A DNA stretch of 54,487 bases from Hyphomicrobiales bacterium (GTDB lineage: Bacteria; Pseudomonadota; Alphaproteobacteria; Rhizobiales; Rhizobiaceae), in NCBI GenBank assembly GCA_021775415.1, contig JAJFHV010000005.1, positions 1-54,487 of the forward strand, in the 5' to 3' direction. The notes beneath the pieces are model-generated. The model saw only the letters and a program-made list of their open reading frames with translations, ran no database searches and had not been told where the DNA came from. This document shows, piece after piece, positions 18,909 through 38,022 of this stretch. Position numbers and translations under genes: made by a program. Position 1 is the stretch's first letter; each line of letters opens with the position of its first letter.

Positions 18909-19283
18909 CTAACGTGATTTCGTATTCTTGCGAAGCCAGGCATCCAGATTGTCTTTGTTGAATGTTCCCGCTTCAAGGTGCGTGTAGATGAATTCAATCA
19001 AGGCATCATTCCCTGCCGTGATCAAAATGCCGTTTGCTTCCAAAAAGATATCGGTACAAGCAAGCGCAACCCTCTTGTTTCCATCTACAAACCCATGGTT
19101 CATAGCCAGGCTTTCCCAAAGTGCAGCGGCTTCCTCGATCGTATCTCGATAGTACCCGGTTTGCGGGCGCAACAAGGCGGCCTCCACAAGGCCTCGGTCC
19201 CTGACACCCGGTGACCCACCAAATTCAACGATCTGGGTGGCATGGATGTCCAGCGCCTCTTCAATCGTTAGATAAATCGGCAT
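18909..19283 (-). CDS. doc: Doc-type (Fic fold) toxin of a type II toxin-antitoxin pair
   Basis: A 124-residue protein with the Doc/Fic signature HGFVDGNKR at 63-71; the His and the GNxxR residues are those used by Doc to phosphorylate EF-Tu, blocking translation. The N-terminal YLTIEEALDIHATQIVEFGG is typical of the Doc subfamily. It starts eight bases after the stop of the Phd-like antitoxin gene and ends eight bases before the coxE-like gene begins. The signature residues are intact, so the toxin is probably functional. Confidence 0.92.
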   Translation of the reverse strand: MPIYLTIEEALDIHATQIVEFGGSPGVRDRGLVEAALLRPQTGYYRDTIEEAAALWESLAMNHGFVDGNKRVALACTDIFLEANGILITAGNDALIEFIYTHLEAGTFNKDNLDAWLRKNTKSR

Positions 19284-19291
19284 CGGTGAAG

Positions 19292-19522
19292 TTACTTAGC
19301 CAGCGCTTCATACACTTTGCGACGGCGCTCAATGCTCCGTTTGTGCAATTCCTTCACCAATGGACGAACGGATTGAGTGTCGCCCAGTTTGTCGAATGCA
19401 GCCTTGGAGAGAATGACTACGGCATCCCGCCCGTTCTTTTGAACAAGAATCGGCTCAACCATTGCTTCATCAATCAATTCACCGAATTTGTTTTTGGCAT
19501 CTGTTGCGGAAAAATGTTTCAT
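19292..19522 (-). CDS. phd: Phd/YefM family antitoxin
   Basis: A 76-residue protein. Its N-terminal half (FSATDAKNKFGELIDEA then EPILVQKNGRDAVVILS) is the Phd/YefM dimerisation and DNA-binding fold; the C-terminal charged helix (about 48-76) would bind and neutralise the Doc toxin. ATG 19522 is preferred because the predicted promoter's -10 box lies at 19554-19559, too close to the upstream TTG 19555 and ATG 19543. It precedes doc as expected in this class. Confidence 0.88.
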   Translation of the reverse strand: MKHFSATDAKNKFGELIDEAMVEPILVQKNGRDAVVILSKAAFDKLGDTQSVRPLVKELHKRSIERRRKVYEALAK

Positions 19523-19553
19523 CTGGGCTGTTCCATCAAGCATAGGTTTGTCC

Positions 19554-19582
19554 AAAATAGCTTAATTAGCTAAAATAGTCAA
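19554..19582 (-). promoter_or_regulatory. phd-doc promoter with palindromic operator
   Basis: Reading on the minus strand, TTGACT (19577-19582), a 17-base spacer and TATTTT (19554-19559) form a good promoter. The spacer contains TAGCTAATTAAGCTA (19558-19572), with TAGCT and AGCTA as inverted arms, a plausible Phd autoregulatory site. Confidence 0.65.
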
Positions 19583-21510: not shown

Positions 21511-22041
21511 CTAGCTTTTCTTCGCTGCCTCAATTGAGGAAACAATCATTTTCTTGGCTTCTTCCGCATCACCCCACCGGTCGATTTTCACCCACTTGCC
21601 GTCCTCAAGGTCCTTGTAACGCTCGAAGAAGTGCGAAATCTGCTTGCGCTTGATGTCTGGCAGGTCAGCGATCGAGTTGATGTCGTTATACATTGCCGAA
21701 ACACTGCTGGATGGTACAGCGATCAGTTTTTCATCACCCCCGGCTTCATCGCGCATGAACAGCACGCCCACCGGACGGCAATTGATAACGCAGCCGGGGA
21801 CCAGGGGACGGCTGTTTGCAATCAACACATCCAGCGGATCACCATCGTCAGAAAGCGTGTGCGGAACAAACCCGTAATTACCGGGATACCGCATGGAGGT
21901 GTAGAGAATACGGTCCACCACCATGGTGCCTGCATCCTTGTCCATCTCATATTTTACTGGTTCACCGCCGACAGGAACCTCAACGATAACGTTGATATCT
22001 TCGGGTGGGTTGTTGCCAATGGTGATCGCGTCAATGCGCAT
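21511..22041 (-). CDS. ppa: Inorganic pyrophosphatase, family I
   Basis: A 176-residue cytoplasmic Mg-dependent enzyme that hydrolyses pyrophosphate to phosphate. The family signature is intact: [16 protein letters not shown] near the start, [12 protein letters not shown], and the metal-binding DDGDPLDVL. The C-terminal [20 protein letters not shown] is also typical. The length is normal. It lies between metA and a MoxR ATPase on the same strand, each gap too long or too ordinary to prove an operon. Confidence 0.96.
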
Positions 22042-22073
22042 ACAAGGTTCCTTTAGGCTTGGTTGTGTCTAAC

Positions 22074-22913
22074 TCAGCGCGTTTGCCGGGCCATAAATGC
22101 AAGGCGCTCAAACAGATGCACATCCTGCTCGTTTTTCAACAATGCACCATGCAGCCGCGGTAACGCGTCCTTGCTGTCTCCTCGAAGGTCAGTCGCATCC
22201 ATATCCTCGGCCACAAGCAACCGGATCCAGTCAAGTGCTTCCGAGGTTGAGGGTTTTTTCTTGAGACCAGGAGTTTCCCGAATCTCATAAAATTGCGTAA
22301 GCGCTGCGCGGACCAGTGATTTCTTGATGCCGGGGTAATGTACGTCAACGATTTGTTGAAGCACTTCAGGTTCCGGAAAGCGGATGTAATGAAAGAAACA
22401 GCGTCGCAAAAATGCGTCCGGCAATTCTTTTTCGTTGTTGGATGTAATAACCACAATCGGCCGGTTCACGGCTTGTACTACTTCGCCAGTCTCATAAACA
22501 TGAAACTCCATCCGGTCGAGTTCCTGTAGCAGATCGTTTGGAAATTCGATGTCGGCCTTGTCGATCTCGTCTATCAGCAGAACGGTTTTTTGTTCTGCTT
22601 CAAAAGCCTCCCAGAGTTTGCCGCGCTTGATGTAGTTCTTGATGTCGTGAACGCGCTCGTCTCCCAACTGGCTATCGCGCAGGCGTGATACCGCGTCATA
22701 CTCATACAGTCCCTGTTGCGCCTTGGTTGTGGATTTGACATGCCATTCGATCAGCGGCAGCTCGAGCGACTGCGCAACCTGGATCGCGAGTTCTGTTTTG
22801 CCGGTTCCAGGTTCCCCCTTGACCAGTAGCGGACGTTCGAGCGCGATTGCTGCATTTACTGCAATCTTGAGGTCATCAGCGGCGACATAAGAGGACGTGC
22901 CATCAAAACGCAT
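22074..22913 (-). CDS. MoxR family AAA+ ATPase (CoxD-like)
   Basis: A 279-residue ATPase with Walker A GEPGTGKT (33-40), Walker B VLLIDEIDKAD, sensor 1 VITSNNEKELPDAFLRRC and the arginine-finger region. This subtype is the usual partner of CoxE-like VWA proteins, here at 17717-18900, and the pair is often linked to maturation of molybdenum hydroxylases such as the cox set at 37-41 kb. The pair is separated in this genome by ppa, metA, a dioxygenase and the toxin-antitoxin genes. Confidence 0.92.
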   Translation of the reverse strand: MRFDGTSSYVAADDLKIAVNAAIALERPLLVKGEPGTGKTELAIQVAQSLELPLIEWHVKSTTKAQQGLYEYDAVSRLRDSQLGDERVHDIKNYIKRGKLWEAFEAEQKTVLLIDEIDKADIEFPNDLLQELDRMEFHVYETGEVVQAVNRPIVVITSNNEKELPDAFLRRCFFHYIRFPEPEVLQQIVDVHYPGIKKSLVRAALTQFYEIRETPGLKKKPSTSEALDWIRLLVAEDMDATDLRGDSKDALPRLHGALLKNEQDVHLFERLAFMARQTR

Positions 22914-23074
22914 CAGTCAAAACTTCCCTGTTTGTGTAGTTGAGCCCTGCATGGTTGCATGTGGCTCAAGCCCGCATATTTATCGGTCTAATCCGGCAGC
23001 GGCAAGAGGCATAAATCAATAGATTACGCCACTTGCGACATCGGGTTTGAGCGATTATAGAAACATCCATCTGT

Positions 23075-23149
23075 TGGGGTGTGGCCAAGTGGTAAGGCAA
23101 CGCTTTTTGGTAGCGTGTATCGTAGGTTCGAATCCTACCACCCCAGCCA
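23075..23149 (+). tRNA. tRNA-Gln (anticodon UUG)
   Basis: A full cloverleaf: acceptor TGGGGTG/CACCCCA, anticodon stem ACGCT/AGCGT with loop TTTTGGT (anticodon TTG), T arm GTAGG-TTCGAAT-CCTAC, discriminator G and encoded CCA. Apart from this gene the 401 bases between 22914 and 23314 show nothing I recognise. Confidence 0.97.
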
Positions 23150-23314
23150 AACACTTTTCGAAAATTGTAAATATGCGGGAGTAGCGGTAATAGCTGTCCC
23201 ATTTCCGGTTTGTATTCGAGGAAAATCTCGCCAGGCAAACTGCGCGGTACACATATAATTCTTGAAGAGGGTGGGCCGACTGGCCAACATACCCGCGTGA
23301 GAATGAATATAAAT

Positions 23315-24178
23315 TTATTGGGTCGACAAAACGCAAGCGCCAGCAAAGATCAGGATTGCCGCTAACCATTGAATTGTCGTTAAACGTTCTTTCAAAAACA
23401 ACCAGGCCAGGATCACAGTTACTGCTCCAAAGGCGGCAGAAATTACTACTGTTATTTCGCGATTTTCTCCAAAACTTCCAAACAACAAAAATAAAATGCC
23501 TGCGGAATCCAGAACGCCCTGCACGATTAAGACAGGCCACCAACGAAACGGAAGAGAAAGTGCTCGCAGGTTGAAAGAGCAAAACGTGATTAGCACTCCC
23601 AGCGCTATCAATCGTCCAAACCAAAGTGTGCTGTAGACACCGTTAACAGCAGCCGATTTCTGCCCAAATATGAGCATGGCAGCATACAGCAAGCTGGCCA
23701 CCGCAGATATCGCAATTGCCTTATGATGATTTGTGGCTTGAGGTTCTTCGCCAATCGAACCCTCACCCAAAGTCGAGTAGGAAATGGCAATAACTCCAAC
23801 AATGCTCATGGCAAAACCAATGCCCTGAAATGTTGAGTAACTGGCTCCGTTCAAAATAGCCCAGACAACCACTAGTGCAGGATGACTGGCAACTAACGGC
23901 GCTACCAACTTAATCGGCCCAATTGCAAGCGCGGCGTACAAAGCCAGCATAGCAGCGGTAAAAAACACACCGTGTCCGACAATTAGCCAGATTGACGACG
24001 CGTTCGGGTATGGGAGAGTTTCAAATTGAAGCATGTAGGCGGTCAGTATGATGCAACTCACCAACAGCATTCCGAACAGCGAGCCTTTGTAACCTATCGA
24101 TTGAGACGTGAAGCGTGCTGCAAAATCTGCACTCCCCAGCGAAATCGCGCTCAAAACTCCCCAAAGCACTTGATTCAT
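23315..24178 (-). CDS. EamA/DMT superfamily transporter
   Basis: A 287-residue inner-membrane protein with about ten hydrophobic segments in two EamA halves (about 5-140 and 155-285); the ending LAWLFLKERLTTIQWLAAIL is the classic close of the second repeat. It is divergent from the hypB-like nickel module (278-base shared upstream region). The operator palindrome at 24297 could also affect it, but its distance makes that uncertain. Substrate unknown. Confidence 0.85.
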   Translation of the reverse strand: MNQVLWGVLSAISLGSADFAARFTSQSIGYKGSLFGMLLVSCIILTAYMLQFETLPYPNASSIWLIVGHGVFFTAAMLALYAALAIGPIKLVAPLVASHPALVVVWAILNGASYSTFQGIGFAMSIVGVIAISYSTLGEGSIGEEPQATNHHKAIAISAVASLLYAAMLIFGQKSAAVNGVYSTLWFGRLIALGVLITFCSFNLRALSLPFRWWPVLIVQGVLDSAGILFLLFGSFGENREITVVISAAFGAVTVILAWLFLKERLTTIQWLAAILIFAGACVLSTQ

Positions 24179-24260
24179 ATTTGCCCAACCTCAAATCAGC
24201 ATCTTCGCTACAAAACATGATGGTTAGTTGAAAAACCCGCAATGCTCAAACCAGCCAAGC

Positions 24261-24326
24261 TTGACAGATCGAACCAAATTTGTTGATATTGGATTAGATT
24301 GACTAGTCAATCAAATAAAACATAAT
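24261..24326 (+). promoter_or_regulatory. Promoter and 16-bp palindromic operator of the nickel/ureohydrolase operon
   Basis: TTGACA (24261-24266), a 17-base spacer and TGATAT (24284-24289) place a transcription start near the perfect palindrome GATTGACTAGTCAATC (24297-24312). A second promoter, TTGACT (24299-24304), 16 bases, CATAAT (24321-24326), overlaps the palindrome itself. The palindrome has the size and form of a TetR-family operator, and a TetR gene ends this operon. Confidence 0.65.
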
Positions 24327-24456
24327 AAAAACAATTGGTTAGTGTGAGTACAAGATTATTGGAGAGTTTTTGGTGATGTATTTCGCTTCGTAGGCGATGC
24401 TAAAGCAGCGAATTGAGACTGAACATTGAGTTTAGTTTTTAGGGAGGGAATGACCA

Positions 24457-25353
24457 ATGTGCACTGTTTGTGGCTGTGACTCGCAAAGCCAGCATAAGCA
24501 CTCGATAAATTCCGACCGTGATCAACACGTCCACCCCCACGATGGGCACCATCATCATGAGCACCATCATCATGATACTCACGGCGGCCATCATCACTAT
24601 GGCAAAAATGAAATAGGGTTATCGGCTCCTGGGCGAAGCTCAGCCGAGCTTGTGGAAATTGAGCGGGATATTCTCTCCAAGAATGATGGCTATGCCAATG
24701 CAAACCGGCAGCGGTTTGAAGATTTACACATTCTTGCACTAAATTTGGTTTCCAGTCCCGGTGCCGGAAAAACCACTTTACTCGAGACAACGGTTGCCAG
24801 GCTCAAGCCAACAGTTTCAGTCAGCGTTGTTGAAGGAGATCAAGAAACCGCAAATGACGCTGAACGCATTCGTGCTTTGGACGTTCCCGCAGTCCAGATC
24901 AACACAGGTCGCGGATGCCATCTGGATGCCCACATGGTTGGGCATGCGATTGATGATCTTAGTCCACAACAGGATAGTGTGATTTTCATTGAAAATGTTG
25001 GAAACCTTGTTTGCCCTGCATCGTTCAATCTCGGCGAGGCCGCCAAAGTTGTGATCCTTTCTGTGACTGAAGGGGACGACAAGCCGCTCAAATATCCAGA
25101 CATGTTCGATGCGGCAGATGTGTTGGTTCTCAACAAAATTGATCTTCTTCCCTACGTTCCATTTGACATCGAAAAAGCCATCGACTGCGCTTTGCGTATC
25201 AACCCAAATCTGCAGATTTTGCAGTTATCAGCACTCACTGGTGAGGGAATGGATGAATGGGTGAATGCTATTGAGAAAATGAGGCCCACTGCAATTCATG
25301 TGGGCTCCGGGTCTGATGCGCCTCAATCGTCGGCACAGGCGGGAGGCGGCTGA
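24457..25353 (+). CDS. HypB-like nickel-binding GTPase (metallochaperone)
   Basis: A 298-residue HypB homologue. It begins MCTVCGC, the high-affinity nickel site of HypB, followed by a His-rich stretch (about 13-47, including HHHHEHHHH) for nickel storage. The GTPase domain has the P-loop SSPGAGKTT (99-107), metal ligands C154, H155 (GRGCHL) and C186 (NLVCP), and NKID (226-229). No hydrogenase structural genes are nearby; the next genes are hypA and two ureohydrolases, so nickel delivery to a ureohydrolase is the likely job, as known for guanidine hydrolase accessory proteins. Confidence 0.93.
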   Translation: MCTVCGCDSQSQHKHSINSDRDQHVHPHDGHHHHEHHHHDTHGGHHHYGKNEIGLSAPGRSSAELVEIERDILSKNDGYANANRQRFEDLHILALNLVSSPGAGKTTLLETTVARLKPTVSVSVVEGDQETANDAERIRALDVPAVQINTGRGCHLDAHMVGHAIDDLSPQQDSVIFIENVGNLVCPASFNLGEAAKVVILSVTEGDDKPLKYPDMFDAADVLVLNKIDLLPYVPFDIEKAIDCALRINPNLQILQLSALTGEGMDEWVNAIEKMRPTAIHVGSGSDAPQSSAQAGGG

Positions 25354-25354
25354 T

Positions 25355-25789
25355 ATGCATGAATTGGCACTGGCGCGCAGCGTGATTGAATTGGTTGAAG
25401 AGTATGCAACCGAAAACAACTGTAGCCGTGTGGAGCGAGTTCATGTGAGGTTAGGGCAACTTTCAGCCATGACCCGGGCGCTCTATTTCTGTTTTCGATC
25501 AGCCTCTCGTGGCACCTGTTGTGAAGGTGCAACCCTATGCATCGAAGAAATTCCGTTAACAGTCAAATGCGGCTTTTGTGACGATGTAAAGCAACCCAGT
25601 GGACGTTACAATTTTCGTTGCCCGGATTGTGGGCGCCCGACTCCTCAAGTGGTGACCGGACGGGAAATGCAATTGGTTTCAATTGAACTTGATCGTGGCC
25701 CCAATGATCACCCGCCAAATTTCGGGTCCGATCCGTTAGCAAACCAGAAATCACGAAATACAGAACCGGGAATACAACATGTCGAGTAG
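25355..25789 (+). CDS. HypA-like nickel metallochaperone
   Basis: A 144-residue protein starting MHELALARSV; the N-terminal Met-His-Glu is the nickel site of HypA. The zinc-binding pairs are C72/C75 (CGFC) and C89/C92 (CPDC). The C-terminal 30 residues are an extra, polar tail beyond the usual end of HypA. It starts one base after the hypB-like stop and its own stop lies inside the start of the first ureohydrolase (ATGTCGAGTAG), so the three proteins are translationally coupled. Confidence 0.93.
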   Translation: MHELALARSVIELVEEYATENNCSRVERVHVRLGQLSAMTRALYFCFRSASRGTCCEGATLCIEEIPLTVKCGFCDDVKQPSGRYNFRCPDCGRPTPQVVTGREMQLVSIELDRGPNDHPPNFGSDPLANQKSRNTEPGIQHVE

Positions 25790-26858
25790 TGCAGAAAATC
25801 CATGGAGCTTTGTACCGCACCAACATCGCGGTCCGCATCAGGAAACGGCTCCAGATGCACACACAAGATCACCCAGCAAGCACAATGGTGCCGTCAAATC
25901 AGCTGGGTTGATGACGTTCATGGGAGCACCCTATTGTGAACCCAACCGGGACAAAGTCAGAGAGGCTGGAGCAAAGATCTGCTTCCTCGGTGCGCCGTGG
26001 GATTTGGGCACCATCGTGCGGACCGGCACATCAAGCGGCCCGCAGGGAATCCGGGAAGCTTCGACACAGTATTTTCCCTACATGTTTGAATATGATGTGG
26101 ATTTGCTGACTTTCTTCAATGTGGTTGATTGTGGCGACGTACCGATTGTGCCCGGCAACAATGAAAAGTCCCAGCAATACATCTGTGACTATGTTCGTGA
26201 ATGTCTGGAAGGTGGCGCGCAGGTTATTCTTGTTGGTGGTGATCACTCGGTCCCCATTCCCGGTGCCAGGGCATTGTCCGAATTTCTCGCGGCCAACAAG
26301 CCGGATGAAAAAATGGGGTACCTCCACATTGATTGTCATCTGGATGCCGCTGTCGACTGGGGCGGTATTGAAATCACCAATGCATCCGGCCCGACCGAAG
26401 CCCTGAAACTTGTCAATTGCAATGCCGAAAACATGGCCCACATGGGTTCCAGAAATGGCTTGAACCCAAAGGACTGGATGGACTTCTGGATTGATAATGA
26501 CATCCCGATTATTCCCATGTCCGAGGTTGTTGAAAAGGGTGTTGTGGATCGCACTCGATACATCTTTGAACGCGCCTGGAATGGTTCAAAGGCGGTTTAT
26601 TGTTCATGGGATACGGATTCGCTGGATTGCAGCTGTATGCCGGGAACAAGTTGTCCGGAGTGCTATGGTATCAACGCCCGTGAGGCAATCCAGTTAGCCC
26701 GCACAATGGGCGAATATGGAGCAAACGTGCTCGAATTGGCGGAATTGTCACCAATCTTTGACGCTAGTCAGATGAGCATGAAACTCGCCTGCAACATGAT
26801 CTACCACTATCTCGGCAGCCGTGCAGTCGCACTACAAAAGCGTGGTGAAACACCATGA
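25779..26858 (+). CDS. Ureohydrolase (arginase/agmatinase family), catalytic subunit, probably Ni-dependent
   Basis: A 359-residue ureohydrolase-fold enzyme expected to hydrolyse a guanidino compound, releasing urea, guanidine or a related product. All six binuclear-metal ligands are present: H156 (GGDHS), D185, H187, D189 (IDCHLDA) and D278, D280 (WDTDSLD); the conserved Glu is E322 (AELSP). CysXxx replacements around the site (IDCH, DCSCMPGTSCPEC) are unlike ordinary agmatinases. The N-terminal 40 residues are polar and His-rich. Coupling to HypA/HypB-like chaperones points to nickel rather than manganese. The substrate is unknown. Confidence 0.9.
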   Translation: MSSSAENPWSFVPHQHRGPHQETAPDAHTRSPSKHNGAVKSAGLMTFMGAPYCEPNRDKVREAGAKICFLGAPWDLGTIVRTGTSSGPQGIREASTQYFPYMFEYDVDLLTFFNVVDCGDVPIVPGNNEKSQQYICDYVRECLEGGAQVILVGGDHSVPIPGARALSEFLAANKPDEKMGYLHIDCHLDAAVDWGGIEITNASGPTEALKLVNCNAENMAHMGSRNGLNPKDWMDFWIDNDIPIIPMSEVVEKGVVDRTRYIFERAWNGSKAVYCSWDTDSLDCSCMPGTSCPECYGINAREAIQLARTMGEYGANVLELAELSPIFDASQMSMKLACNMIYHYLGSRAVALQKRGETP

Positions 26859-26910
26859 TGATTTACTTGCCAAATATCAAAGCAGATTTTTACAAAAAGG
26901 ATACGACCCA

Positions 26911-27957
26911 ATGAATCCTGCAAAGGCTTTTGCACATTTGTTTTCGCCACTTGGTGGTGATGATGCGGAGAATTATCGCTCTCCTGGCCAGATTTCATTT
27001 ATGAGGGCTCCCTTCGTTGAAATTGAGAAAAAGGCCTTGAAAGAAACCGGCGTGCGTTATGCCTTTTTGGGGGTGCCCTTCGACGAAGGAAATGTTGGAA
27101 AGCCCGGTTGCGAAGATGGCGCAAGAGAGTTCCGCGTCGCATCACTCGACTACTTCCCATATTGGTTCGAGTTCAATGTTGACCTACATGGCTGTTCTGT
27201 TGATTGCGGCGATGTGCAGATGCCCAGGGTCAATCCCGAGGTTGCACGTAAAAGAATTTACGAAGCCGTAAAGACTGTGTTGGAAGCAGGCCTGACACCG
27301 ATCATTTGTGGAGGCGATCGGTCAATATCGATTCCGGCAACCCAAGCGCTTTCGGATCATATCGGTGCCAATAAGAAAATGGGCTATATGCACCTCGGTG
27401 CACATTTGGATATGGCAGATAGCTGGGCTGGCGAAAAATATGTAGGTCCATGCACGCTGGCGCGCATCACCGAACTTGGAAATTTGGCACCGGAAAATGT
27501 AGCGCATATCGGAGCCAGAAATTCGTTCAATCCCAAAGATCACATCGATCTGATCAAAAAACGCGGAATACGATTCCATCCAATGTTTGAGCTTCTTGAT
27601 CGTGGCATCGATGAAGTTATGGACGAAGCGACAACAAGCGTTTGGGACGGCACTGACGCACAATATTTGAGTTTCAATTTCAATGTGATGGATTCATCTG
27701 CGGCACCTGGGGTGACCGCAACGGAGCCTGGCGGCCTGGAATCCAGGGAAATGATGCGTATCGCAGCCAGGATTGCCGACAGAGGTGGTCCAACCGTAAT
27801 TGATATCAGTGAGCTTTGCCCGATGTTTGATATCAGCGGCTCCACCTCCCGTATGGCGGTATGCGTTGCATCTCGCATCATGGCAGGAGTTGCGGTGAAA
27901 AATGGCGAAATGATTGACGATTCTGTCAGGCGACCAGGATGGAAGCATGGCAAATAA
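26911..27957 (+). CDS. Ureohydrolase-like pseudo-enzyme subunit lacking four metal ligands
   Basis: A 348-residue protein clearly related to the preceding gene (shared RAPF/GAPY start region, YFPYWFEFNVDL versus YFPYMFEYDVDL, SRNxxNPKD). Four of six metal ligands are replaced: R137 for His (GGDRS), G163 for Asp (HLGAHLD), N256 and N258 for both Asp (SFNFNVMD); only H165 and D167 remain. It cannot bind a normal metal pair, so it likely serves as a structural or regulatory partner of the first enzyme. ATG 26911 with AAGGA upstream is preferred over GTG codons overlapping the first gene. Confidence 0.9.
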   Translation: MNPAKAFAHLFSPLGGDDAENYRSPGQISFMRAPFVEIEKKALKETGVRYAFLGVPFDEGNVGKPGCEDGAREFRVASLDYFPYWFEFNVDLHGCSVDCGDVQMPRVNPEVARKRIYEAVKTVLEAGLTPIICGGDRSISIPATQALSDHIGANKKMGYMHLGAHLDMADSWAGEKYVGPCTLARITELGNLAPENVAHIGARNSFNPKDHIDLIKKRGIRFHPMFELLDRGIDEVMDEATTSVWDGTDAQYLSFNFNVMDSSAAPGVTATEPGGLESREMMRIAARIADRGGPTVIDISELCPMFDISGSTSRMAVCVASRIMAGVAVKNGEMIDDSVRRPGWKHGK

Positions 27958-28035
27958 ATTGCTCAGCAAACTGATTGCTCAGCATAAGGGTGCCTTGGGA
28001 ACGCACTGAATTCTAACTAAAACAGGGATGGAAAA

Positions 28036-29127
28036 ATGACATATAATACAAGCAAACTGTTTTCCGGCATAGACCGCCGCACATTTCTTGGTGCTTCTGC
28101 GGGTGCTGTAGCAGCTACCACGATGATACCAAACTTCGCTGCTGCTGCGGGCAGCCTGAATGTTTTGGTCTGGTGTGATCATGCGGACGCAAAACTGATT
28201 GAGCCGTTTGAGGCAGCTCACAATGTGAAAGTAAATGTAAAAACATATGAAGGGACTGGCACTGCGCTGTCGATCCTGGAGCAATCAGCCCCGGGTGACT
28301 GGGACGTTCTGGTGATTGATGCGCCTGATGTTCCCCGCGTCGCCAAAGATGGTATCTTGATGGAACTCCCCAAAGAGATTGCCCCGTGGGATACCATGTT
28401 CCCCGAATTGCGCGATGCCCCTTATACAAGCGTGGATGGCAAGTACTATGCTATCCCAGAGAAGTTTGGGTATTACGGATTTTGTTACGACAAGCGGGTT
28501 GTAGACCCAGCGGACGCCAGTAGCGGTGACATTGGCTGGAATGAAAAATATAAAGGCCGTATTGGCGTTTATGATTACTACTTCCCGATCCTTCAAATGA
28601 TCGGGTTATCCATGGGCTTGAAACCAGCGGATATCAAACAATCGGATCTGGCAGAAATTCGCAAACGTTTGCTCGCGATGAAACCCAATGTAAAAGTCAT
28701 TGGTGACATCGTCAGCGTTCAAAATGCGTTGGTTACAGGAAGTGTGGATGTCATCGTCGGTGGCGCTGAGTTCACCGTTTCCAACCTTATTCCTACTAAC
28801 CCCCATCTTGACTGGACGATTGCAGATGAAGGCGGTCTGATTTGGAACCAGGGTATCGGGGTTTTGGAAAAATCCAATCAGAAAGACCTGGCAATGGAGT
28901 TTGTGAAATGGATTCTGTCTCCAAAAGGTCAGGGCCTGCTGGCGACATCAGAATGCTTCTGGGCCATGCCGGCAAATTCTGCTGCAGAAATCGATGATGA
29001 ATCCAAAGGCCATTTGCGTTGGGACAATCAATCGGACTTCCTGAAGCGTTCTCACGTGTCTTTATTTCCGGACGCTGAAATGGATGCCGCAATGCTGGAT
29101 ATCTGGACTGAGTTTTTGCAGTCGTAG
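28036..29127 (+). CDS. ABC transporter substrate-binding protein, spermidine/putrescine (PotD) type, Tat-exported
   Basis: A 363-residue periplasmic binding protein. The N-terminus carries a twin-arginine signal (DRRTFLGASAG, R14-R15) followed by a hydrophobic stretch ending in AAAAG. The mature protein begins LNVLVWCDHADAKLIEPFEA, the typical opening of PotD/PotF-like proteins, and includes YYAIPEKFGYYGFCYD and the C-terminal WAMPANSAAEIDDE. Such proteins bind cationic amines; in this operon the ligand is likely the guanidino compound cleaved by the ureohydrolase pair. It follows the second ureohydrolase by 78 bases. Confidence 0.9.
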   Translation: MTYNTSKLFSGIDRRTFLGASAGAVAATTMIPNFAAAAGSLNVLVWCDHADAKLIEPFEAAHNVKVNVKTYEGTGTALSILEQSAPGDWDVLVIDAPDVPRVAKDGILMELPKEIAPWDTMFPELRDAPYTSVDGKYYAIPEKFGYYGFCYDKRVVDPADASSGDIGWNEKYKGRIGVYDYYFPILQMIGLSMGLKPADIKQSDLAEIRKRLLAMKPNVKVIGDIVSVQNALVTGSVDVIVGGAEFTVSNLIPTNPHLDWTIADEGGLIWNQGIGVLEKSNQKDLAMEFVKWILSPKGQGLLATSECFWAMPANSAAEIDDESKGHLRWDNQSDFLKRSHVSLFPDAEMDAAMLDIWTEFLQS

Positions 29128-29178
29128 ATTATTGCAAACACTGTATCCTATTGGAGCAGTGTTTATGGAGCAGAAGAC

Positions 29179-30072
29179 ATGACTAACATCTCTGTCCCAA
29201 GGGAGCGGACTGAACGTCCTCCCTCCTCCCTGGGTGGGCTACCTGTTACCAAATGGGTGGCCTACCCGGCCTTTATTTTTTCAATTCTTTTTTTCGTTGC
29301 GCCATTTCTGATTATGTTTGCGGTCAGTTTTTGGCAACGCATATCCGGGCGTCTTGAAGCTACCTGGACGATCCAGAACTACGAGAAATTCTTTTCCAAA
29401 AGCTATCTGGTTGAAGCACTGTTCAATTCGCTAGAGGTAACAATCATCACCACAATCATCAGCGTGCTAATCGCTTATCCTCTGGCCTATATTGTGGCGT
29501 TTAAAGTGCCAACGAAATGGCAGCGGATTATTCTGCTGCTGACCATTCTCCCCTTTTGGACGGCCTATGTTGTGCGGTCCTACAGTTGGCTGTTGGTATT
29601 ATCTGACAACGGAATTGTGAACTCCACCATGTTGTCACTGGGGATAATCAATGAACCTTTGAAACTTGCTTACACAAGAGGCGCCACAATTTTGGGATTT
29701 GTGCATTTCTTCACCATGCTGCTGGTGCTTACGATCTATGCGAATTTGATTCAGATACCGAAAAATCTACTTCATGCGGCCTCTGACTTGGGCGCGAGTG
29801 CGACTCAGACATTCTTGCGTGTAACACTGCCCCTGAGCCTGCCCGGTGTGGCGGTTGGTGCTTTCTTGACCTTTGTCATCACCATCGGCGATTACATTAC
29901 GCCACAGATTCTTGGGGGCAATACGGAGTTGCTGGTCCCCCAGGCGATTATGTTGCAAATCTCCAGAACAGCCGATTTCCCAATGGCAGCTGTTATGAGC
30001 ATCGTCTTGATGGCCGTTGTCACCGGACTCTATTTGATCTTCCAACGTTATTTGAAACTGGATCGAATATGA
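29179..30072 (+). CDS. ABC transporter permease, PotB type
   Basis: A 297-residue inner-membrane permease with six predicted segments. The cytoplasmic EAA loop is AASDLGASATQTFLRVTLP followed by SLPGV, the contact with the ATPase. The region after the first segment is long, as in PotB. Its stop overlaps the start of the second permease by four bases (ATGA), showing tight co-translation. It forms the import channel with the next gene for the substrate bound by the Tat-exported binding protein. Confidence 0.93.
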   Translation: MTNISVPRERTERPPSSLGGLPVTKWVAYPAFIFSILFFVAPFLIMFAVSFWQRISGRLEATWTIQNYEKFFSKSYLVEALFNSLEVTIITTIISVLIAYPLAYIVAFKVPTKWQRIILLLTILPFWTAYVVRSYSWLLVLSDNGIVNSTMLSLGIINEPLKLAYTRGATILGFVHFFTMLLVLTIYANLIQIPKNLLHAASDLGASATQTFLRVTLPLSLPGVAVGAFLTFVITIGDYITPQILGGNTELLVPQAIMLQISRTADFPMAAVMSIVLMAVVTGLYLIFQRYLKLDRI

Positions 30073-30863
30073 ATGAGCACCAAAATCTAAACTGGCCCGC
30101 CGCGAGCTACCTGGTTGTTGTACTCGGCTTCATTTATTTGCCGGTGGTAATCCTCGTCTTGTTCTCATTTCAGGATGGTCTGTTGCCCGTTCCGCCTTTT
30201 AATGGGCCAAGCTTACAATGGTATTACAAGCTCTTAAGCAATGAACGGCTCGTCGATGCGCTTTTGAACTCGGTGATTGTTGCTGTGCTGTCGGGCCTGG
30301 TCACAACACTGCTGGGCTTCCTGGCGGCCTACGGTCTTTCCAGATCACCCGTTACTTTTTCCGGTTCCGCACGATTTCTGCTTATCGCCCCGATAACCGT
30401 TTCCTATCTGATTATCGGCATTGGATTGCTCATTACATTTAATCTTGTAGGCGTTGGAAAATCGCTGTTTTCTGTTGGATTAGGTCATGTGGTAATCAAT
30501 CTGCCCTTGGCTTTTGCGATCATTTCCTCGCAGATGAATGACAGTCACAAGAATATCGATGCAGCTGCTCACGATCTCGGTGCCAGCGATTTGCAAACGA
30601 TTGTGCTCATTTCTGCCCCAATGATGAAACCATCGCTTCTGGCAGCGTTCTGTTTGTCGGCAACCCTTTCCTGGGACGAGTTTATCGTGGCATTCTTGCT
30701 GAGCAGGTTTGAGGTTACCCTGCCGGTTATGATTTTTGAAATGCTGCGTGCCGGTTTAACCCCGGAGGTTAATGCGGCCGGTACCATTGTATTTGCGATT
30801 TCACTAATGATCGTCCTGTTTGCCGCGAGCACATTATTAATCAAACAACGAGACACCAAATGA
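30069..30863 (+). CDS. ABC transporter permease, PotC type
   Basis: A 264-residue inner-membrane permease with six predicted segments and an EAA loop AAHDLGASDLQTIVLISAP. PYLPVVILVLFSF-like wording at residues 20-40 (YLPVVILVLFSFQ) is typical of PotC proteins. It overlaps the gene on each side by four bases (ATGA), so all transporter genes from 29179 to 31936 are translated together. Confidence 0.93.
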   Translation: MNEHQNLNWPAASYLVVVLGFIYLPVVILVLFSFQDGLLPVPPFNGPSLQWYYKLLSNERLVDALLNSVIVAVLSGLVTTLLGFLAAYGLSRSPVTFSGSARFLLIAPITVSYLIIGIGLLITFNLVGVGKSLFSVGLGHVVINLPLAFAIISSQMNDSHKNIDAAAHDLGASDLQTIVLISAPMMKPSLLAAFCLSATLSWDEFIVAFLLSRFEVTLPVMIFEMLRAGLTPEVNAAGTIVFAISLMIVLFAASTLLIKQRDTK

Positions 30864-31936
30864 CCGGCAATTTTGTAGAATTCTCAAACATTACAAAAAA
30901 ATTTGATGAACTGGTTGCCCTCGACGACGTCAATTTGACGATTGATCATGGTCAGTTTGTCGTCTTGCTGGGCCCATCAGGTAGTGGCAAGACGACCTTG
31001 CTATCCATTCTTGGGGGATTCCTGAATCCGACCTCCGGCGAAGTTCGAATAGAGGGTGAAACAGTAACTGACCTTCCACCGGCACGCAGGCCAACGGTCA
31101 CTGTTTTTCAGGACTATGCCTTGTTTCCGCATATGACGGTTCGTGACAACATCGCCTTTGGACTTGCAATGCGTAAGGTTACCAAGTCTGAGCGGCACCA
31201 ACGGGCCGATGAGATCCTGGCAACTGTGGGGCTTGAGGGTTTGGGGAGCCGCAAAATCCAACAATTGTCAGGCGGTCAACGCCAGCGTGTCGCCTTGGCA
31301 AGAGCTATTGTCGTCGAACCGAAAGTCTTGTTACTTGATGAACCGTTGGGCGCGCTGGACCTCAAGATCAGGCGACAGATGCAAGACGAGCTTGTTCAAT
31401 TGCAACGGCGGATTGAAACTACCTTTGTTCATGTTACTCACGACCAGGAAGAGGCCATGAACATCGCCGATGTAGTGGTTGTCATGAGCAATGGTCGTAT
31501 CGAAGACGTTGGGCCACCCGAACGGGTCTACCTGCGTCCATCCAGTTTGTTTTCAGCAAATTTCATGGGCGACACGAATATTCTGGAAGGTCGCACCGTC
31601 GGCAAGTCGGCGAACAAAGTGAAAATGGAAACATCAGTCGGAACCATTGCAGCTGTTGGGAATGTTGGTGCGAATGAAGATGTTTCACTCTCGATCCGCC
31701 CGGAACAATTGTATCTGGAAAAACCCAAGGCGAGTGATGCGGTAAATCTTGGAAATGTTCGAATCCAGTCCACGGTGTTCCAGGGCCCACAAAGATTGTG
31801 CCATGCAGTTTCAGTTGATAGTTCAAAGAACACCTGGCTCATACGATTGCCAGCTCAGCTAACAATTGAGGATGAAACTGTTATCCCGCTTTGGGCGAAG
31901 CAGTCTGAAATTGTTGTTATTCCGGGCATTTCCTAA
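30860..31936 (+). CDS. ABC transporter ATP-binding protein, PotA type
   Basis: A 358-residue ATPase with Walker A GPSGSGKTT (38-46), Q-loop VFQDYALFPHM, signature LSGGQRQRVALARA, Walker B VLLLDEPLGALD and the H-loop VTHDQEEA. The C-terminal 110 residues form a TOBE domain, where polyamine and other import ATPases sense or regulate. It powers uptake through the two upstream permeases. It begins with a four-base overlap with the second permease. Confidence 0.95.
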   Translation: MTGNFVEFSNITKKFDELVALDDVNLTIDHGQFVVLLGPSGSGKTTLLSILGGFLNPTSGEVRIEGETVTDLPPARRPTVTVFQDYALFPHMTVRDNIAFGLAMRKVTKSERHQRADEILATVGLEGLGSRKIQQLSGGQRQRVALARAIVVEPKVLLLDEPLGALDLKIRRQMQDELVQLQRRIETTFVHVTHDQEEAMNIADVVVVMSNGRIEDVGPPERVYLRPSSLFSANFMGDTNILEGRTVGKSANKVKMETSVGTIAAVGNVGANEDVSLSIRPEQLYLEKPKASDAVNLGNVRIQSTVFQGPQRLCHAVSVDSSKNTWLIRLPAQLTIEDETVIPLWAKQSEIVVIPGIS

Positions 31937-31962
31937 TGCCCAAATTTAACGGGAGTGCCTGA

Positions 31963-32583
31963 ATGAATGTTCAAGTAAAATTGAATAAGAACGAAAAAGC
32001 AGATGAAATACTGGAAACTGCATTTGAATTGTTTTCGAGGAATGATTTTTCAGACGTTTCAATGAAGGACATAGCGAGTAAGTCAGGCACAACTTATTCT
32101 CTCGTGTATTACTATTTCAAAAGTAAGGATGAAATATTCCACTCGTCTGTTAGGTGGGCCTTACAAATATCAATCGATTCCTACAAAAAAATTGATCACG
32201 CTAAACACGATCCGGTGGAAGCAATAAACATGTGGCTGGATATCAACATAAAACACTCAAAACACTTGAGGCGTTTATGCAGAATCATGCTTGAATCATC
32301 CAGCAGACTCGGAAGAGCACCCAATATTGAAGCGCACATAAAACAGTTCTATAAATTTGAAAATGACATTCTCACAAACAGCATAAGAAGAGGCGTGGAA
32401 TCCGGCGCTTTTAAGTGCGACGATCCGGTGAGCATGGCCGCTTTCGTTTCAACAGGTATTGATGGAATCTACTACGGAACTCTGACGCGACCTGGCTTCA
32501 GAATTCGCAAAGCAATTGAACTGTTACGCACAAATACCTTCAATTTATTGGGTTTTGCAGAAGCAGAAAGCGCAAGTGGCTAA
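31963..32583 (+). CDS. TetR family transcriptional regulator
   Basis: A 206-residue repressor. Residues 10-60 are the TetR helix-turn-helix (ILETAFELFSRNDFSDVSMK then IASKSGTTYSLVYYYFKSKD), and the C-terminal helical domain would bind an inducer. It follows the importer ATPase by 26 bases in the same orientation, so it is probably the autoregulated local repressor. The palindrome at 24297-24312 in front of the operon is the best candidate operator. The inducer may be the imported guanidino compound. Confidence 0.9.
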   Translation: MNVQVKLNKNEKADEILETAFELFSRNDFSDVSMKDIASKSGTTYSLVYYYFKSKDEIFHSSVRWALQISIDSYKKIDHAKHDPVEAINMWLDINIKHSKHLRRLCRIMLESSSRLGRAPNIEAHIKQFYKFENDILTNSIRRGVESGAFKCDDPVSMAAFVSTGIDGIYYGTLTRPGFRIRKAIELLRTNTFNLLGFAEAESASG

Positions 32584-32660
32584 AACGCACAAGCAACAAT
32601 CTGGTGGATGTGAGCGTTCCGGTTGGAACAAGAGTTATATCAAATGAAGGAGAAAATTAG

Positions 32661-32855
32661 ATGAAGTTTATTTACCAGCCCATCGGATTGATTGTGATAA
32701 TTTGCAGTTTTTATCTCACCTCAGCTCATGCTCATCCCAGTAGTCAAATTGTTCATTCGCACACAAATTGGACAGGTCTTGTAGTCATCGCTGCGGTAGT
32801 TGTTGCCTTGATGGTTCTGAATACAATGATCATTGCCAAACGACAAAAAACATAA
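32661..32855 (+). CDS. Small His-containing membrane protein
   Basis: A 64-residue protein, unrecognised by name. A signal-like hydrophobic segment (5-22) is followed by a short periplasmic-looking loop rich in His (AHAHPSSQIVHSHTNW), then a second hydrophobic segment (38-56) and a basic end. Small His-loop membrane proteins of this kind accompany some nickel and cobalt uptake systems, so a role in nickel acquisition for the upstream enzyme is possible but unproven. AAGGAG lies about nine bases before the ATG. Confidence 0.6.
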   Translation: MKFIYQPIGLIVIICSFYLTSAHAHPSSQIVHSHTNWTGLVVIAAVVVALMVLNTMIIAKRQKT

Positions 32856-32895
32856 CAAATTTGGGGTGTAAATACATTTAGTTGGAAGTGTGTGC

Positions 32896-33636
32896 ATGGC
32901 CCTGTCTATCGTCTCAGCAAAAGCCTGGTATGAAACCCGCAAACTGGCTGATGACATCACTTACATCGGTGAACCCTTCATCAAAGAGTTTTACCGCTGC
33001 AACATTTGGCATGTGCGTGGTCGGGATATGGATATGTTGGTTGACAGCGGAATGGGAGTTGTCAGCCTGCGAGAACACATTCCGCTTGTAACCGAGAAAC
33101 GATGTATCGCAGTCGCAAGTCATACCCACTTTGATCACATAGGGTGTCATCACGAATTTGAAGAGCGTATTGTCCATAAATCGGAGGAGCAGCTTCTTTC
33201 CAATCCCACTCGCGCCAACACCCTGGCCGATCCATATGTCACCGACGACATATTCACCGGACTGCCACCGGCACCTTATACATCCGCTACATATTCAGTT
33301 CGTTCCGCACCAGCCACCCGCGTGGTGGAAGATGGAGATGTCATGGATTTGGGGGATCGGACATTTGAGGTGGTTCACACACCCGGCCACTCACCAGGCG
33401 GCATTGCTTTGTGGGAGGCTGAAACCGAGATATTGTTCTCTGGCGATATTGTCTACGATGGCCCTTTAATTGAAGACACCTACCACTCCAACGCGGTTGA
33501 TTATTTTGCAAGCATGAAGCGATTGCTCGATTACCCTGTTCGCGTCGTCCACGGCGGGCATTTTCCAAGCTATGATGGCGAGCGGCATCGTTCAATTATT
33601 CGCAGCTGGCTTGATCAAAAGGATGCTGGTAACTAG
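32896..33636 (+). CDS. MBL-fold metallohydrolase
   Basis: A 246-residue metallo-beta-lactamase-fold protein with HTHFDH (the HxHxDH motif), a downstream HTPGHSPGG, the bridging Asp in FSGDIVYDG and a terminal His in VVHGGHFPS. This is a glyoxalase II-like, small-molecule type rather than a beta-lactamase. It follows the small membrane protein by 40 bases and may be the last gene of the nickel/ureohydrolase operon, where it could process a reaction product, but this rests on position alone. A GTG at 32890 is an alternative start. Confidence 0.82.
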   Translation: MALSIVSAKAWYETRKLADDITYIGEPFIKEFYRCNIWHVRGRDMDMLVDSGMGVVSLREHIPLVTEKRCIAVASHTHFDHIGCHHEFEERIVHKSEEQLLSNPTRANTLADPYVTDDIFTGLPPAPYTSATYSVRSAPATRVVEDGDVMDLGDRTFEVVHTPGHSPGGIALWEAETEILFSGDIVYDGPLIEDTYHSNAVDYFASMKRLLDYPVRVVHGGHFPSYDGERHRSIIRSWLDQKDAGN

Positions 33637-33694
33637 CCGGAAGCATTTTTGAAAAACTCTTCTCGTTTTCTCCGATAAGCCACCACAGTTAAGT

Positions 33695-34621
33695 ATGCTG
33701 AAATTCCAAACTCACCCATTTGTTGCAACTGCTGTGGTCATTTTTGCAGCTGCAATCTGGGGTCTGTTCTGGATTCCATTACGATTTTTTGAAGCGCACG
33801 GGTTGGATGCAGCGTGGGCAACTGTGGCTCAGTTTGTAGTGCCGGCCTTGTTGCTTTTGCCGGTTGCACTTTGGCGTGTTGCCCACCGACAACCCATCGG
33901 TCTCAATCACTATTCGACCGGGTTACTCATCGGTGCCGCGTTCGTTCTTTATTATGAGAGTTTGTTGTTGACCGATGTCGTGCGGGCTCTGCTGTTGTTT
34001 TACATCACTCCGATTTGGAGCACGATACTGGAGGTCGTGTTCTTGCGCAGGCGGGTCAGGTTGCCCCGGTTGTTCGCGTTGTTACTTGGCATTTCTGGCC
34101 TCTTCATTGTGCTGGGCGGTAGGAGCGGAATTCCGTTGCCTCAAAACCCTGGGGACATGATGGCGCTGCTTTCAGGAATTGTGTTCGCGTTTGGTAGTTT
34201 ACGCGTACGATCTCGTCCCCAACTGGAGACCTTTGAGCATGTGTTCTCGTTCTTCATCTATGGTGCGCTGTTTGCAGGCGCGATGACATTGCTGCCAATA
34301 TCAGAGTTAGGTACGTTTCCGGCAATTTCTACCTGGATGCGCCTGTCACCATGGTTGTTGATCATGGCAGTATTTTTTCTAATACCTGTAATGTGGGGGC
34401 TTTTATGGGGGGCAAGACATCTTGATCCCGGTCGACTGGGTATTCTTCTACAAATGGAAGCCGTGATTGGAATTGGTAGCGCTGCCATCTTGACTGATGA
34501 GCCCTTCGGCCTGCCAGAAATATTGGGCACAATACTAATCCTTGGCGCCAGTGTCGTTGATGTTTTGGGCAGTGATAATTCTGCATTACCCGAGGTACAA
34601 AATGACAGTGAGATTGGTTGA
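33695..34621 (+). CDS. EamA/DMT superfamily transporter
   Basis: A 308-residue inner-membrane protein with about ten hydrophobic segments in two EamA repeats; the first ends near SGLFIVLGG and the second near LGTILILGASVVDVLG. It follows the MBL gene by 58 bases. Its stop codon (TGA, 34619-34621) shares its last base with the start of a repeat copy. Export of a product of the upstream pathway is possible; substrate unknown. Confidence 0.82.
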   Translation: MLKFQTHPFVATAVVIFAAAIWGLFWIPLRFFEAHGLDAAWATVAQFVVPALLLLPVALWRVAHRQPIGLNHYSTGLLIGAAFVLYYESLLLTDVVRALLLFYITPIWSTILEVVFLRRRVRLPRLFALLLGISGLFIVLGGRSGIPLPQNPGDMMALLSGIVFAFGSLRVRSRPQLETFEHVFSFFIYGALFAGAMTLLPISELGTFPAISTWMRLSPWLLIMAVFFLIPVMWGLLWGARHLDPGRLGILLQMEAVIGIGSAAILTDEPFGLPEILGTILILGASVVDVLGSDNSALPEVQNDSEIG

Positions 34622-34650
34622 ATGTCCGCTTTGGGTCATTAGCGGGCATC
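34621..34650 (-). repeat. Dispersed palindromic repeat, single hairpin unit, reverse orientation
   Basis: AATGTCCGCTTTGGGTCATT followed by AGCGGGCATC is the reverse complement of the right-hand unit. It begins on the last base of the DMT gene's stop codon and fills the gap to the converging MATE gene. Confidence 0.88.
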
Positions 34651-34670
34651 GAGAAACCGGGGTTTTAAAT

Positions 34671-36080
34671 CTATTTTGTTAAAATCAAAAAGCGCAGCGC
34701 AAGCAGGCTACCCGTAACGGTTAATCCAAGGGCCATTCCCCACCAAAGTCCATCGACCCCCATTCCAGTTGGAAATGCAAGATACCAACCGCCCCCGACG
34801 CCAAAAATCCAGTAGCCAACGGTTGCCAGATAAAATGGAACCACGGTGTCCTTCAGGCCTCGAAGTGCCAAAGATGATATCACCTGCAGTCCGTCAAAAA
34901 TTTGAAAAAAGGCTGCGAGAACAAGAAGCCGTGTAGTTAAAGATAGAACGGATTCAAAGCCGGGATCGCTGGGTTCCAAAAACAACCGGACCAACGGCTC
35001 AGGAAAATTCAAGGGTATAGCCATCAGGACAACTAGCAATGTTAACCCCATACCAATGGTTAGCAATCCAGCCTGTCGTGCAGCAGCAATACTTCCGCGG
35101 CCAACGCCATGCGCGACCCGGATCATACCAGCTTCGGCAAAGCCGTGTGCTGTCATGAACGCAATACCAACCCACGCAATGATTACCTGATAGGTAGCGA
35201 GCGGGATTGCGCCAAGAACACCAGAGAATATCGACGTCGCAGCAAACAAGCCTGCTTCCAATATTACGATACCCGCAACTGGGGTCCCAAGATAAAGTAT
35301 CTGTTTGCAGATATCAGGATCAAACACGATCCGTCCGCGAAACAAGCCATATCCGCGAAAGGTGGGAGTCACATAAGCATACGCCAATAGTGCCAGAAAC
35401 ATGAATACTGAAACAATGGACATCGCCCAGCCGGCGCCAGCTACACCCATTTCCGGCATTCCGTAAACGCCTTCGACCAGTCCTTTGCACAAAACATAGT
35501 TGAGACCGATGGCCGAGACTGAAATCACCATAATCGCGCCGGTTTTTGCCAATGATGCCACGAATGTGCGTAAGACAAAAAACCAAAGTAGGGGCAGCAT
35601 ACCGAAGGAAAATGGCACCAGATAAGGACCCATCAGAGCAACCACTTCCGGGTCTTGACCTGTTAGTGCAAGAATAGAACCGAGGTTTGCAACAAGAATC
35701 GTTATGGGAATTCCAAGAAACAATGAGACAATAAAGCCCTGACGGGCAGCATTCCCGGCATCTGCTTTTAGGCCGGCACCCTCGGCTTGCGCCACCAATA
35801 CTCCAACAACTGACAGTACACCTGCAAAAATCAGAAAGATTTCGATGGCAAGATCACCAGCAAGACCGACACTCGCCAACTCTCTATAACCCAACTTACC
35901 AACGATTGCCTTTGTCGTCAGAAGCATGGCAGCTTCGGCCAAATATGCAGCAATAAGAGGGCCCGCGATTACACATAAAATTCGAGCCTCAAATCGCCGA
36001 GAAGGCAGCATAGCTCTGTTCGAGCTAACTTCAGCGTTATTGTCTATGGTGGATTCCCCCATGTTTTCGTTCTTTATCAT
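34671..36080 (-). CDS. MATE family multidrug/metabolite efflux protein
   Basis: A 469-residue inner-membrane protein with twelve predicted segments in two MatE halves (about 30-190 and 250-410). Segments such as GLAGDLAIEIFLIFAGV and the C-terminal GLWWGMALGLTVTGSLLALR fit the NorM/DinF group of cation-coupled exporters. The start is uncertain: ATGs at 36119, 36080 and 36062 all lack a good ribosome-binding site; 36080 is a compromise. It converges with the DMT gene. The exported compound is unknown. Confidence 0.85.
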   Translation of the reverse strand: MIKNENMGESTIDNNAEVSSNRAMLPSRRFEARILCVIAGPLIAAYLAEAAMLLTTKAIVGKLGYRELASVGLAGDLAIEIFLIFAGVLSVVGVLVAQAEGAGLKADAGNAARQGFIVSLFLGIPITILVANLGSILALTGQDPEVVALMGPYLVPFSFGMLPLLWFFVLRTFVASLAKTGAIMVISVSAIGLNYVLCKGLVEGVYGMPEMGVAGAGWAMSIVSVFMFLALLAYAYVTPTFRGYGLFRGRIVFDPDICKQILYLGTPVAGIVILEAGLFAATSIFSGVLGAIPLATYQVIIAWVGIAFMTAHGFAEAGMIRVAHGVGRGSIAAARQAGLLTIGMGLTLLVVLMAIPLNFPEPLVRLFLEPSDPGFESVLSLTTRLLVLAAFFQIFDGLQVISSLALRGLKDTVVPFYLATVGYWIFGVGGGWYLAFPTGMGVDGLWWGMALGLTVTGSLLALRFLILTK

Positions 36081-36776: not shown

Positions 36777-36998
36777 GATACTTCCTCGGTTCAGCGGATC
36801 TGTTGGCAACAATCCCGGCAATGTATAGCCGAGACAGATTAGGGAACATAGGTACTGAGCAGCGTGGATGCCAGAATCGACAATCCCGCTATAAACCAAA
36901 GGTTTAATGCCAAAGCATGCGAGTTAGGTTATGCTAACATCGCAGGATCAAGTTTCAGATTGATTATCCCCGGCCTGAATTGTGATAATGAGTACTGT

Positions 36999-37451: not shown

Positions 37452-37505
37452 GAGGGAATAGAAGAAACGGCAAACAGGAAACCGAAAACATAATCTGGGA
37501 GGAAA

Positions 37506-37985: not shown

Positions 37986-38022
37986 ACGCCGAGCTCGAAC
38001 ACACGTATCAGAGGAGAAAATT

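Follow-up and report, generated by a model that had tools for sequence, protein, structure and literature searches.

Here, we describe a gene module in a 54,487-nucleotide stretch of DNA from a Hyphomicrobiales bacterium (assembly GCA_021775415.1, contig JAJFHV010000005.1, forward strand; hereafter the window), in which the nickel-chaperone genes hypB and hypA are followed by two ureohydrolase genes, termed alpha and beta. The module is real, intact and conserved. Its kind has been known since 2024, when metformin hydrolase (MefH), which recently evolved to degrade the diabetes drug metformin, and its presumed ancestor, the N,N-dimethylguanidine hydrolase DmgH, were both described (PMC11399263). 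The initial annotation suggested that such an enzyme might be undescribed for its lineage and substrate; as a kind, two-subunit nickel hydrolases are not. The new part is not the two-subunit nickel design but the sub-clade to which the window pair belongs, with its own pocket, its own PotABCD-type importer and a loose link to urease. Judging from sequence, we lean towards a module that imports a small N-alkylguanidine and hydrolyzes it with the aid of nickel, N,N-dimethylguanidine being the most likely substrate.

The module and its two ureohydrolase subunits

Genes were called from the list of open reading frames (ORFs), from reading of the DNA and from family scans against curated cut-offs. 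All genes of the module lie on the forward strand. The first, hypB (24457..25353), encodes a nickel chaperone GTPase with a His-rich N-terminal part (TIGR00073, 288 bits; cut-off 121). The second, hypA (25355..25789), encodes a nickel chaperone that starts with MHE and carries two CxxC pairs (TIGR00100, 94 bits, cut-off 88; Pfam HypA, 99 bits, cut-off 29). Its longest ORF begins at 25298, and its start is best read as the ATG at 25355, one base past the hypB stop (25353). Alpha (25779..26858) overlaps hypA by 11 bases, so that the close coupling of these genes reported earlier is borne out. For beta (26911..27957), the longest ORF begins with a GTG at 26821 and overlaps alpha; an ATG (MNPAK) and homology to the MefH beta subunit both begin at 26911, 52 bases past the alpha stop.

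Both ureohydrolases match the Pfam Arginase model well above its cut-off of 22 (175 bits for alpha and 193 for beta). In phmmer searches of solved structures, alpha matches metformin hydrolase subunit A with 525 bits (E 1.3e-156, ~62% identity), and beta matches subunit B with 532 bits (E 6e-159, ~66% identity). For alpha, the alpha chains of 8snf, 8snk, 8x3g and 8ryi (521–525 bits) rank ahead of their beta chains (187 bits) and of 'probable agmatinase 2' (157 bits; 7esr and 7oi1, the latter of which we take to be the guanidine hydrolase GdmH), and guanidinobutyrase, absent from the tree described below, reaches 92 bits. For beta, the next match after metformin hydrolase beta is the alpha chain, at 204 bits. 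Counted over aligned columns, the identity of window alpha is 63.1% to MefH (L083) and likewise 63.1% to DmgH (L031); for window beta, it is 64.7% to MefH and 65.5% to DmgH.

Alignment to MefH, whose residue numbering is used throughout, reveals that alpha retains all six metal ligands (H158, D183, H185, D187, D276 and D278) as well as W192, N199 and E320. Its pocket carries T80, C184 and T288-S289-C290. Of the six ligands, beta has only the counterparts of H185 and D187, the other four being lost; the earlier description of an intact ureohydrolase accompanied by a second, ureohydrolase-like protein is thus accurate. Beta also has Y22 and F82; in the solved di-nickel metformin hydrolase, these two residues and W192 form the lining of the capped pocket (PMC11271267). 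Both are present in all 14 clade members. In a tree of 58 rows (35 alphas, 8 betas and 15 other ureohydrolases, with long outgroup branches flagged by the program), the alphas form one branch (support 100/99) and the betas another (100/100). Window alpha and beta fall on these branches with MefH and DmgH, outside agmatinase. Assignment as agmatinase was rejected on the same grounds, and the TIGR01230 scores of the two proteins (126 and 117 bits) are below the cut-off of 174.

The genome that contains the window (3.46 Mb, 23 contigs, 97.3% complete) holds a single HypA, that of the module. Neither a urease alpha subunit nor a NiFe-hydrogenase was found in it, which extends to the whole genome, for these two enzymes, the absence first noted in the window. 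No other nickel-chaperone client was found among the two searched for (HypB, UreG and other nickel or urea enzymes were not searched). Urea carboxylase was considered as a substitute for urease, and nothing scores above cut-off; the best three matches cover the first ~440 of 1201 model positions only, in frames of 683, 683 and 459 residues. Four further arginase-family genes in the genome are 26–32% identical to alpha. Taken together, the tandem subunits, the metal ligands and the linked hypBA genes make alpha and beta clear relatives of MefH and DmgH, predicted to form a heteromeric nickel ureohydrolase. The initial annotation had proposed a hetero-oligomeric, nickel-dependent enzyme, and homology, ligands, chaperone linkage and genome content all support that proposal.

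Pocket residues and operons of the sub-clade

A contig scan returned 51 loci, 32 of which (L007–L038) are at least 62% identical to alpha and 19 of which are 27–31% identical. Matches to alpha were found in 24 of 199 genomes of the family sample (at 1e-30; only the window genome and G051 exceed 60%), in 5 of 397 genomes of the order sample (at 1e-90, the window among them) and in 1 of 398 of the phylum sample, the window itself. Fourteen plasmid records match, three of them above 60%, all from Pseudomonas. Removal of six repeats (L058, L081, L084, L085, L086, L089) from 43 alpha frames left 37 for comparison. Two of these, L035 and L038, lie on contigs that end inside alpha, before residue 276, and were excluded from trees and column counts.

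Pocket residues divide the complete alphas into classes. In the window class, termed TSC, T80, C184 and T288-S289-C290 occur in 14 of 14 complete alphas, and the truncated L035 and L038 show T80 and C184. The TTA class (n = 11) carries Q80, C184 and T288-T289-A290; the DmgH class, STS (n = 8), has Q80, S (6) or A (2) at position 184, and S288-T289-S290; the MefH class has one member, with Q80, C184 and N288-S289-A290. One further, divergent pair, L020 (9324-11534), has an alpha with N80, C184 and T288-T289-Y290 that forms a long branch inside TSC, and a beta with Asp for Y22. With L020 included, the TSC branch receives 100/100 support both in the alpha tree and in an alpha+beta tree of 34 pairs, and an approximately unbiased test rejects grouping of the window with the DmgH/MefH rows. 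Support is lower, at 88/91 and 95/89, for the fork uniting TSC with the STS alphas, which group there with two TTA rows. Apart from the window, the complete members of the clade all come from 13 records titled metagenome-assembled genome, labelled Hyphomicrobiales, Rhodobacteraceae, Rhodospirillales, Magnetovibrio, Gammaproteobacteria, Thiotrichales, Arenicellales or simply 'bacterium'.

Among the alpha columns, eight are fixed across TSC for a residue never seen in the 20 other alphas (L020 not counted). Pocket residues account for two of the eight (80 and 290; p 0.04, hypergeometric, over 192 TSC-invariant columns), and six are at most 3 residues away from one (p 0.0006, same columns). These p values are rough: the rows are related to one another, and the distances were picked once the data had been viewed. 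Two beta columns, 79 and 80, adjoining F82, are likewise specific to the TSC clade. Exceptions to the pairing of alpha with an adjacent beta are L026 (TTA), with no beta in the 5 kb past alpha; L023, with beta 1.9 kb from alpha; and L037, with beta in two pieces. A further ureohydrolase gene, 30–32% identical to alpha, lies near the pair in three loci (L024 12404-13354; L013 19318-20271; L030 17325-18221).

The operons were compared by tblastn on the flanks of the loci. In TSC, hypA lies beside alpha in 16 of 16 loci and hypB is present in 14, the other two loci starting close to the hypB site. A PotABCD-type importer is found, entire or as far as the contig reaches, in all 14 TSC loci with sequence past beta. 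In 12 it directly follows beta, with a binding protein 57–79% identical outside the window; in L010 and L011 it lies upstream with the ATPase gene reversed and a 49% identical binding protein. L020 is without such an importer, as are all 11 TTA loci. The latter carry an SsuA-type binding protein (7/11), a type III glutamine-synthetase-like gene (7/11) and urease genes after beta (6/11, two of them cut by the contig end); only 7/11 have hypBA nearby. In several TTA loci (L028, 3399-17565; L087; L022), the pair has the SsuA-type importer with the glutamine-synthetase-like gene on one side and a full urease operon on the other, together a candidate cassette for alkylguanidine assimilation. Among STS loci, hypBA is present in 8 of 8, and a codB-like transporter with HupE accompanies the five from Aminobacter; another STS locus, L090, has a 57–67% identical PotABCD-type importer.

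No urease genes flank any of the 16 TSC loci. At genome level, urease alpha scores above cut-off in 4 of the 14 TSC genomes searched, and a fifth has a partial match below it. G275 is one of these four, and its urease alpha gene adjoins its TTA copy. Completeness figures exist for three of the 14 genomes (window, 97%; G275, 99%; G309, 71%), and urease absence in the others is soft.

In partial coverage of the literature, including work on sponge, symbiont and guanidine, we found no paper that describes the TSC enzyme or sub-clade, which may be among the 56 such pairs reported by Li et al. across four phyla (PMC11271267). Further related papers are PMC11410670 and PMC13390362.

Proposed function and its alternatives

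In the mechanism that we favor, the PotABCD-type importer would bring in a cationic substrate, and HypA and HypB would assist in supplying alpha with its two nickel ions. Catalysis by alpha would require a complex with beta, itself free of metal, in which the N-terminal end of beta would cap the active site, with alpha2-beta4 the expected stoichiometry. Metal-bound hydroxide would attack the guanidinium carbon to yield urea and an amine. Because the genome showed neither a urease alpha nor, above cut-off, a urea carboxylase, the cell probably makes use of the amine and probably excretes the urea.

The subunit identities, the conserved ligand and cap residues, the linked hypA and importer genes and the single HypA with no other client found support this proposal, as do known relatives. 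Sinn et al. report that MefH and DmgH are nickel-dependent, require both subunits and rely on co-expressed chaperones (PMC11399263). DmgH, from Aminobacter, and a 70%-identical Hyphomicrobium homologue hydrolyze N,N-dimethylguanidine and not metformin; among the compounds tested, MefH uses metformin and, less well, N,N-dimethylguanidine only, leaving methylguanidine unused (PMC11399263). In the hands of Li et al., the metformin enzyme was inactive on dimethylguanidine (PMC11271267). The window module shares with that of DmgH (Aminobacter niigataensis DSM 7050, L031) the order hypB-hypA-alpha-beta, the ligands, the cap residues, N199 and W192. The TSC clade also sits between relatives of DmgH in the tree, which we count in favor of an N-alkylguanidine. 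The two differ in that DmgH has Q80, S184 and S288-T289-S290, a pocket absent from window alpha, in that its locus has a codB-like transporter and HupE where the window has the PotABCD-type importer, and in that urease is reported downstream in Aminobacter (PMC11399263), where the window genome showed none. TTA-class pairs such as L028 and L087 share the paired subunits, ligands, N199 and C184 and differ at Q80 and T288-T289-A290 and often in their flanking genes; no TTA member here was matched to a characterized protein. GdmH is likewise a nickel-dependent ureohydrolase activated by HypA/HypB-like proteins (PMC11399263, PMC11271267), but it is a single-gene enzyme. The initial annotation had listed guanidine, biguanide and alkylguanidine as substrates. 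Of these, alkylguanidine is the most likely, N,N-dimethylguanidine being the documented non-drug substrate of this kind of enzyme, and guanidine and biguanide are unlikely because characterized relatives did not use them (PMC11271267, PMC11647477).

Several observations weigh against N,N-dimethylguanidine hydrolysis as proposed. Its natural source is unknown according to Sinn et al. (PMC11399263) and to a 2025 paper whose authors cite DmgH as their own work (PMC12508155). A route for dimethylamine was not found at genome level. Li et al. found that the metformin enzyme required the chaperones inside cells, whereas it was active in vitro without them when nickel was in excess (PMC11271267). Pocket residues 80 and 290 of TSC are unlike those of every DmgH-class or TTA-class alpha compared. 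Finally, two assemblies, JAJFHE (L007 TSC, L028 TTA) and JAJEAD (L010 TSC, L023 TTA), carry both TSC and TTA, an arrangement that would be redundant if the two classes shared one function. The other assemblies with two classes, VFKA (L024 STS, L027 TTA) and G235 (L087 TTA, L090 STS), combine STS with TTA, and JAPUJA has two TTA copies. TSC and STS were never seen together, which fits the idea that they do the same job beside TTA, although four assemblies are few. As for dimethylamine monooxygenase, the one HODM-like gene lies beside ruvA/ruvB without adjoining partner genes and has no NCBIfam match at 1e-20; we do not count it as support.

An alternative is that TSC is a separate enzyme that acts by the same mechanism on a small guanidino substrate of its own, neither N,N-dimethylguanidine nor metformin, a reading that overlaps our broad proposal but not its favored substrate and that we regard as somewhat doubtful. 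T80 and C290, found in 14 of 14 TSC alphas and never in the 20 others, and the clustering of specific columns around the pocket speak for it, as do an importer unlike the SsuA-type of TTA and the codB-like type of Aminobacter, and the co-occurrence of TSC with TTA. So does a pair studied by Li et al., 61.7% identical to MetCa and inactive on metformin (PMC11271267), which is not identified with any sequence here. On the other side, the cap residues, W192 and N199 are unchanged, the same importer type lies beside the DmgH-class pair L090, and the windows of the column test were chosen post hoc among related rows. It is also conceivable, though we would not put it at even chances, that TSC represents a third functional class, defined by a re-lined pocket (T80, S289, C290), a dedicated importer, little urease link, an unrecognized natural N-alkylguanidine and use of the amine, in alpha- and gammaproteobacterial metagenome genomes.

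Two other explanations appear very improbable. Hydrolysis of metformin or a biguanide as the natural function might be suggested by C184 and S289, which the window shares with MefH (also MetCaCb or MfmAB; Pseudomonas mendocina plasmid pMET-2, L083; PDB 8snf, 8snk, 8sp2, 8x3g, 8ryi) along with gene order and both subunits. However, MefH has Q80, N288 and A290, all absent from the window, and a wastewater plasmid setting with a codB-like transporter and HupE. DmgH gained some metformin activity when given S184C plus N288-S289-A290 (PMC11399263), a set of which window alpha matches just C184 and S289; moreover, the 61.7% pair was inactive on metformin, and MfmAB had no activity on biguanide (PMC11647477). 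We give equally little credence to an ordinary manganese agmatinase-like enzyme with chaperone genes adjoining by chance. Generic agmatinase models do match both proteins, but below their cut-offs, and the tree position argues otherwise, as does N199 where a catalytic His is usual (PMC11271267). Chance adjacency is difficult to reconcile with HypA beside alpha in 16/16 TSC, 8/8 DmgH-class and 7/11 TTA-class loci, and with the lack of a NiFe-hydrogenase or urease alpha that the chaperones might serve.

The TSC clade may bear on the natural role of the metformin hydrolase family. As it comes with an importer of its own, what the periplasmic protein binds and what the enzyme hydrolyzes can be assayed separately.

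Evolution, genomic setting and neighboring genes

The TSC clade also bears on the evolution of metformin hydrolase. Fitch parsimony places Q80, C184, T288, T289 and A290 at the base of the alpha tree, whose basal forks have moderate support (87–92 by bootstrap). Of the four metformin-switch residues, only N288 is without counterpart among the other 34 complete alphas. This offers a lead, namely that C184 and A290 of MefH may be returns to an older state, that S289 may have arisen in TSC as well, and that N288 alone may be new.

The module lies in a variable region whose left edge is marked by a tRNA-Gln gene (23075-23149); this setting is recognized because neighboring gene order varies among genomes of the same genus and the module is absent from them. 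In G010, genes left of the tRNA are conserved up to it, and the next 15.8 kb have no close match to window genes. In G114, the window genes of 41380-47098 and 53150-54298 adjoin its tRNA-Gln. At 1e-30, alpha has no match in G010 or G114 and one, at 35% identity, in G184. G010 and G184 have urease without the pair; G114 has neither. The arrangement is consistent with horizontal gain of the module.

The four genes proposed at the outset stand, but the module is larger, as the importer and a regulator follow on the same strand (28036-32583). They encode a PotD-like periplasmic binding protein (28036..29127; Pfam SBP_bac_8, PotD model below cut-off, conserved after beta), PotB-like (29179..30072) and PotC-like (30069..30863) ATP-binding cassette (ABC) permeases, and a PotA-like ABC ATPase (30860..31936). 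For the permeases and ATPase, the top NCBIfam models are PotB, PotC and PotA. All Pot matches are below cut-off, though they are the best general match, and the importer's substrate is therefore not readable from these models. A TetR-family gene (31963..32583; Pfam TetR_N), with a relative here in 6 of 14 clade loci including the window, probably regulates the module operon. An Rfam scan of 22000-36000 found no guanidine riboswitch, the tRNA being the sole match.

Beyond the regulator lies a gene for a metallo-beta-lactamase-fold hydrolase (32890..33636, forward strand; Pfam Lactamase_B), a possible accessory only. Proteins of this type, 68–77% identical, are encoded near the pair at three loci (window 32890-33636; L013 16921-17643; L105 3853-4581), which represent two pocket classes. 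Relatives at 58–78% identity occur in 6 of 8 other pair-bearing genomes, mostly elsewhere in the genome; one has none, and Aminobacter has one at 42%. In three same-genus genomes lacking the pair, the figures are 45%, 43% and none.

Other genes in the window include a Doc/Phd toxin-antitoxin-like pair of small genes (18909-19555, reverse strand), noted by eye from the ORF list, and a CoxG-like gene with a three-gene molybdenum hydroxylase of the carbon monoxide/aldehyde dehydrogenase type, below curated cut-offs (36864-41289). At 50531-52954, on the reverse strand, lies a gene for an FAD oxidoreductase with a fused folate domain of the GcvT type, an architecture shared with enzymes of N-methyl compounds.

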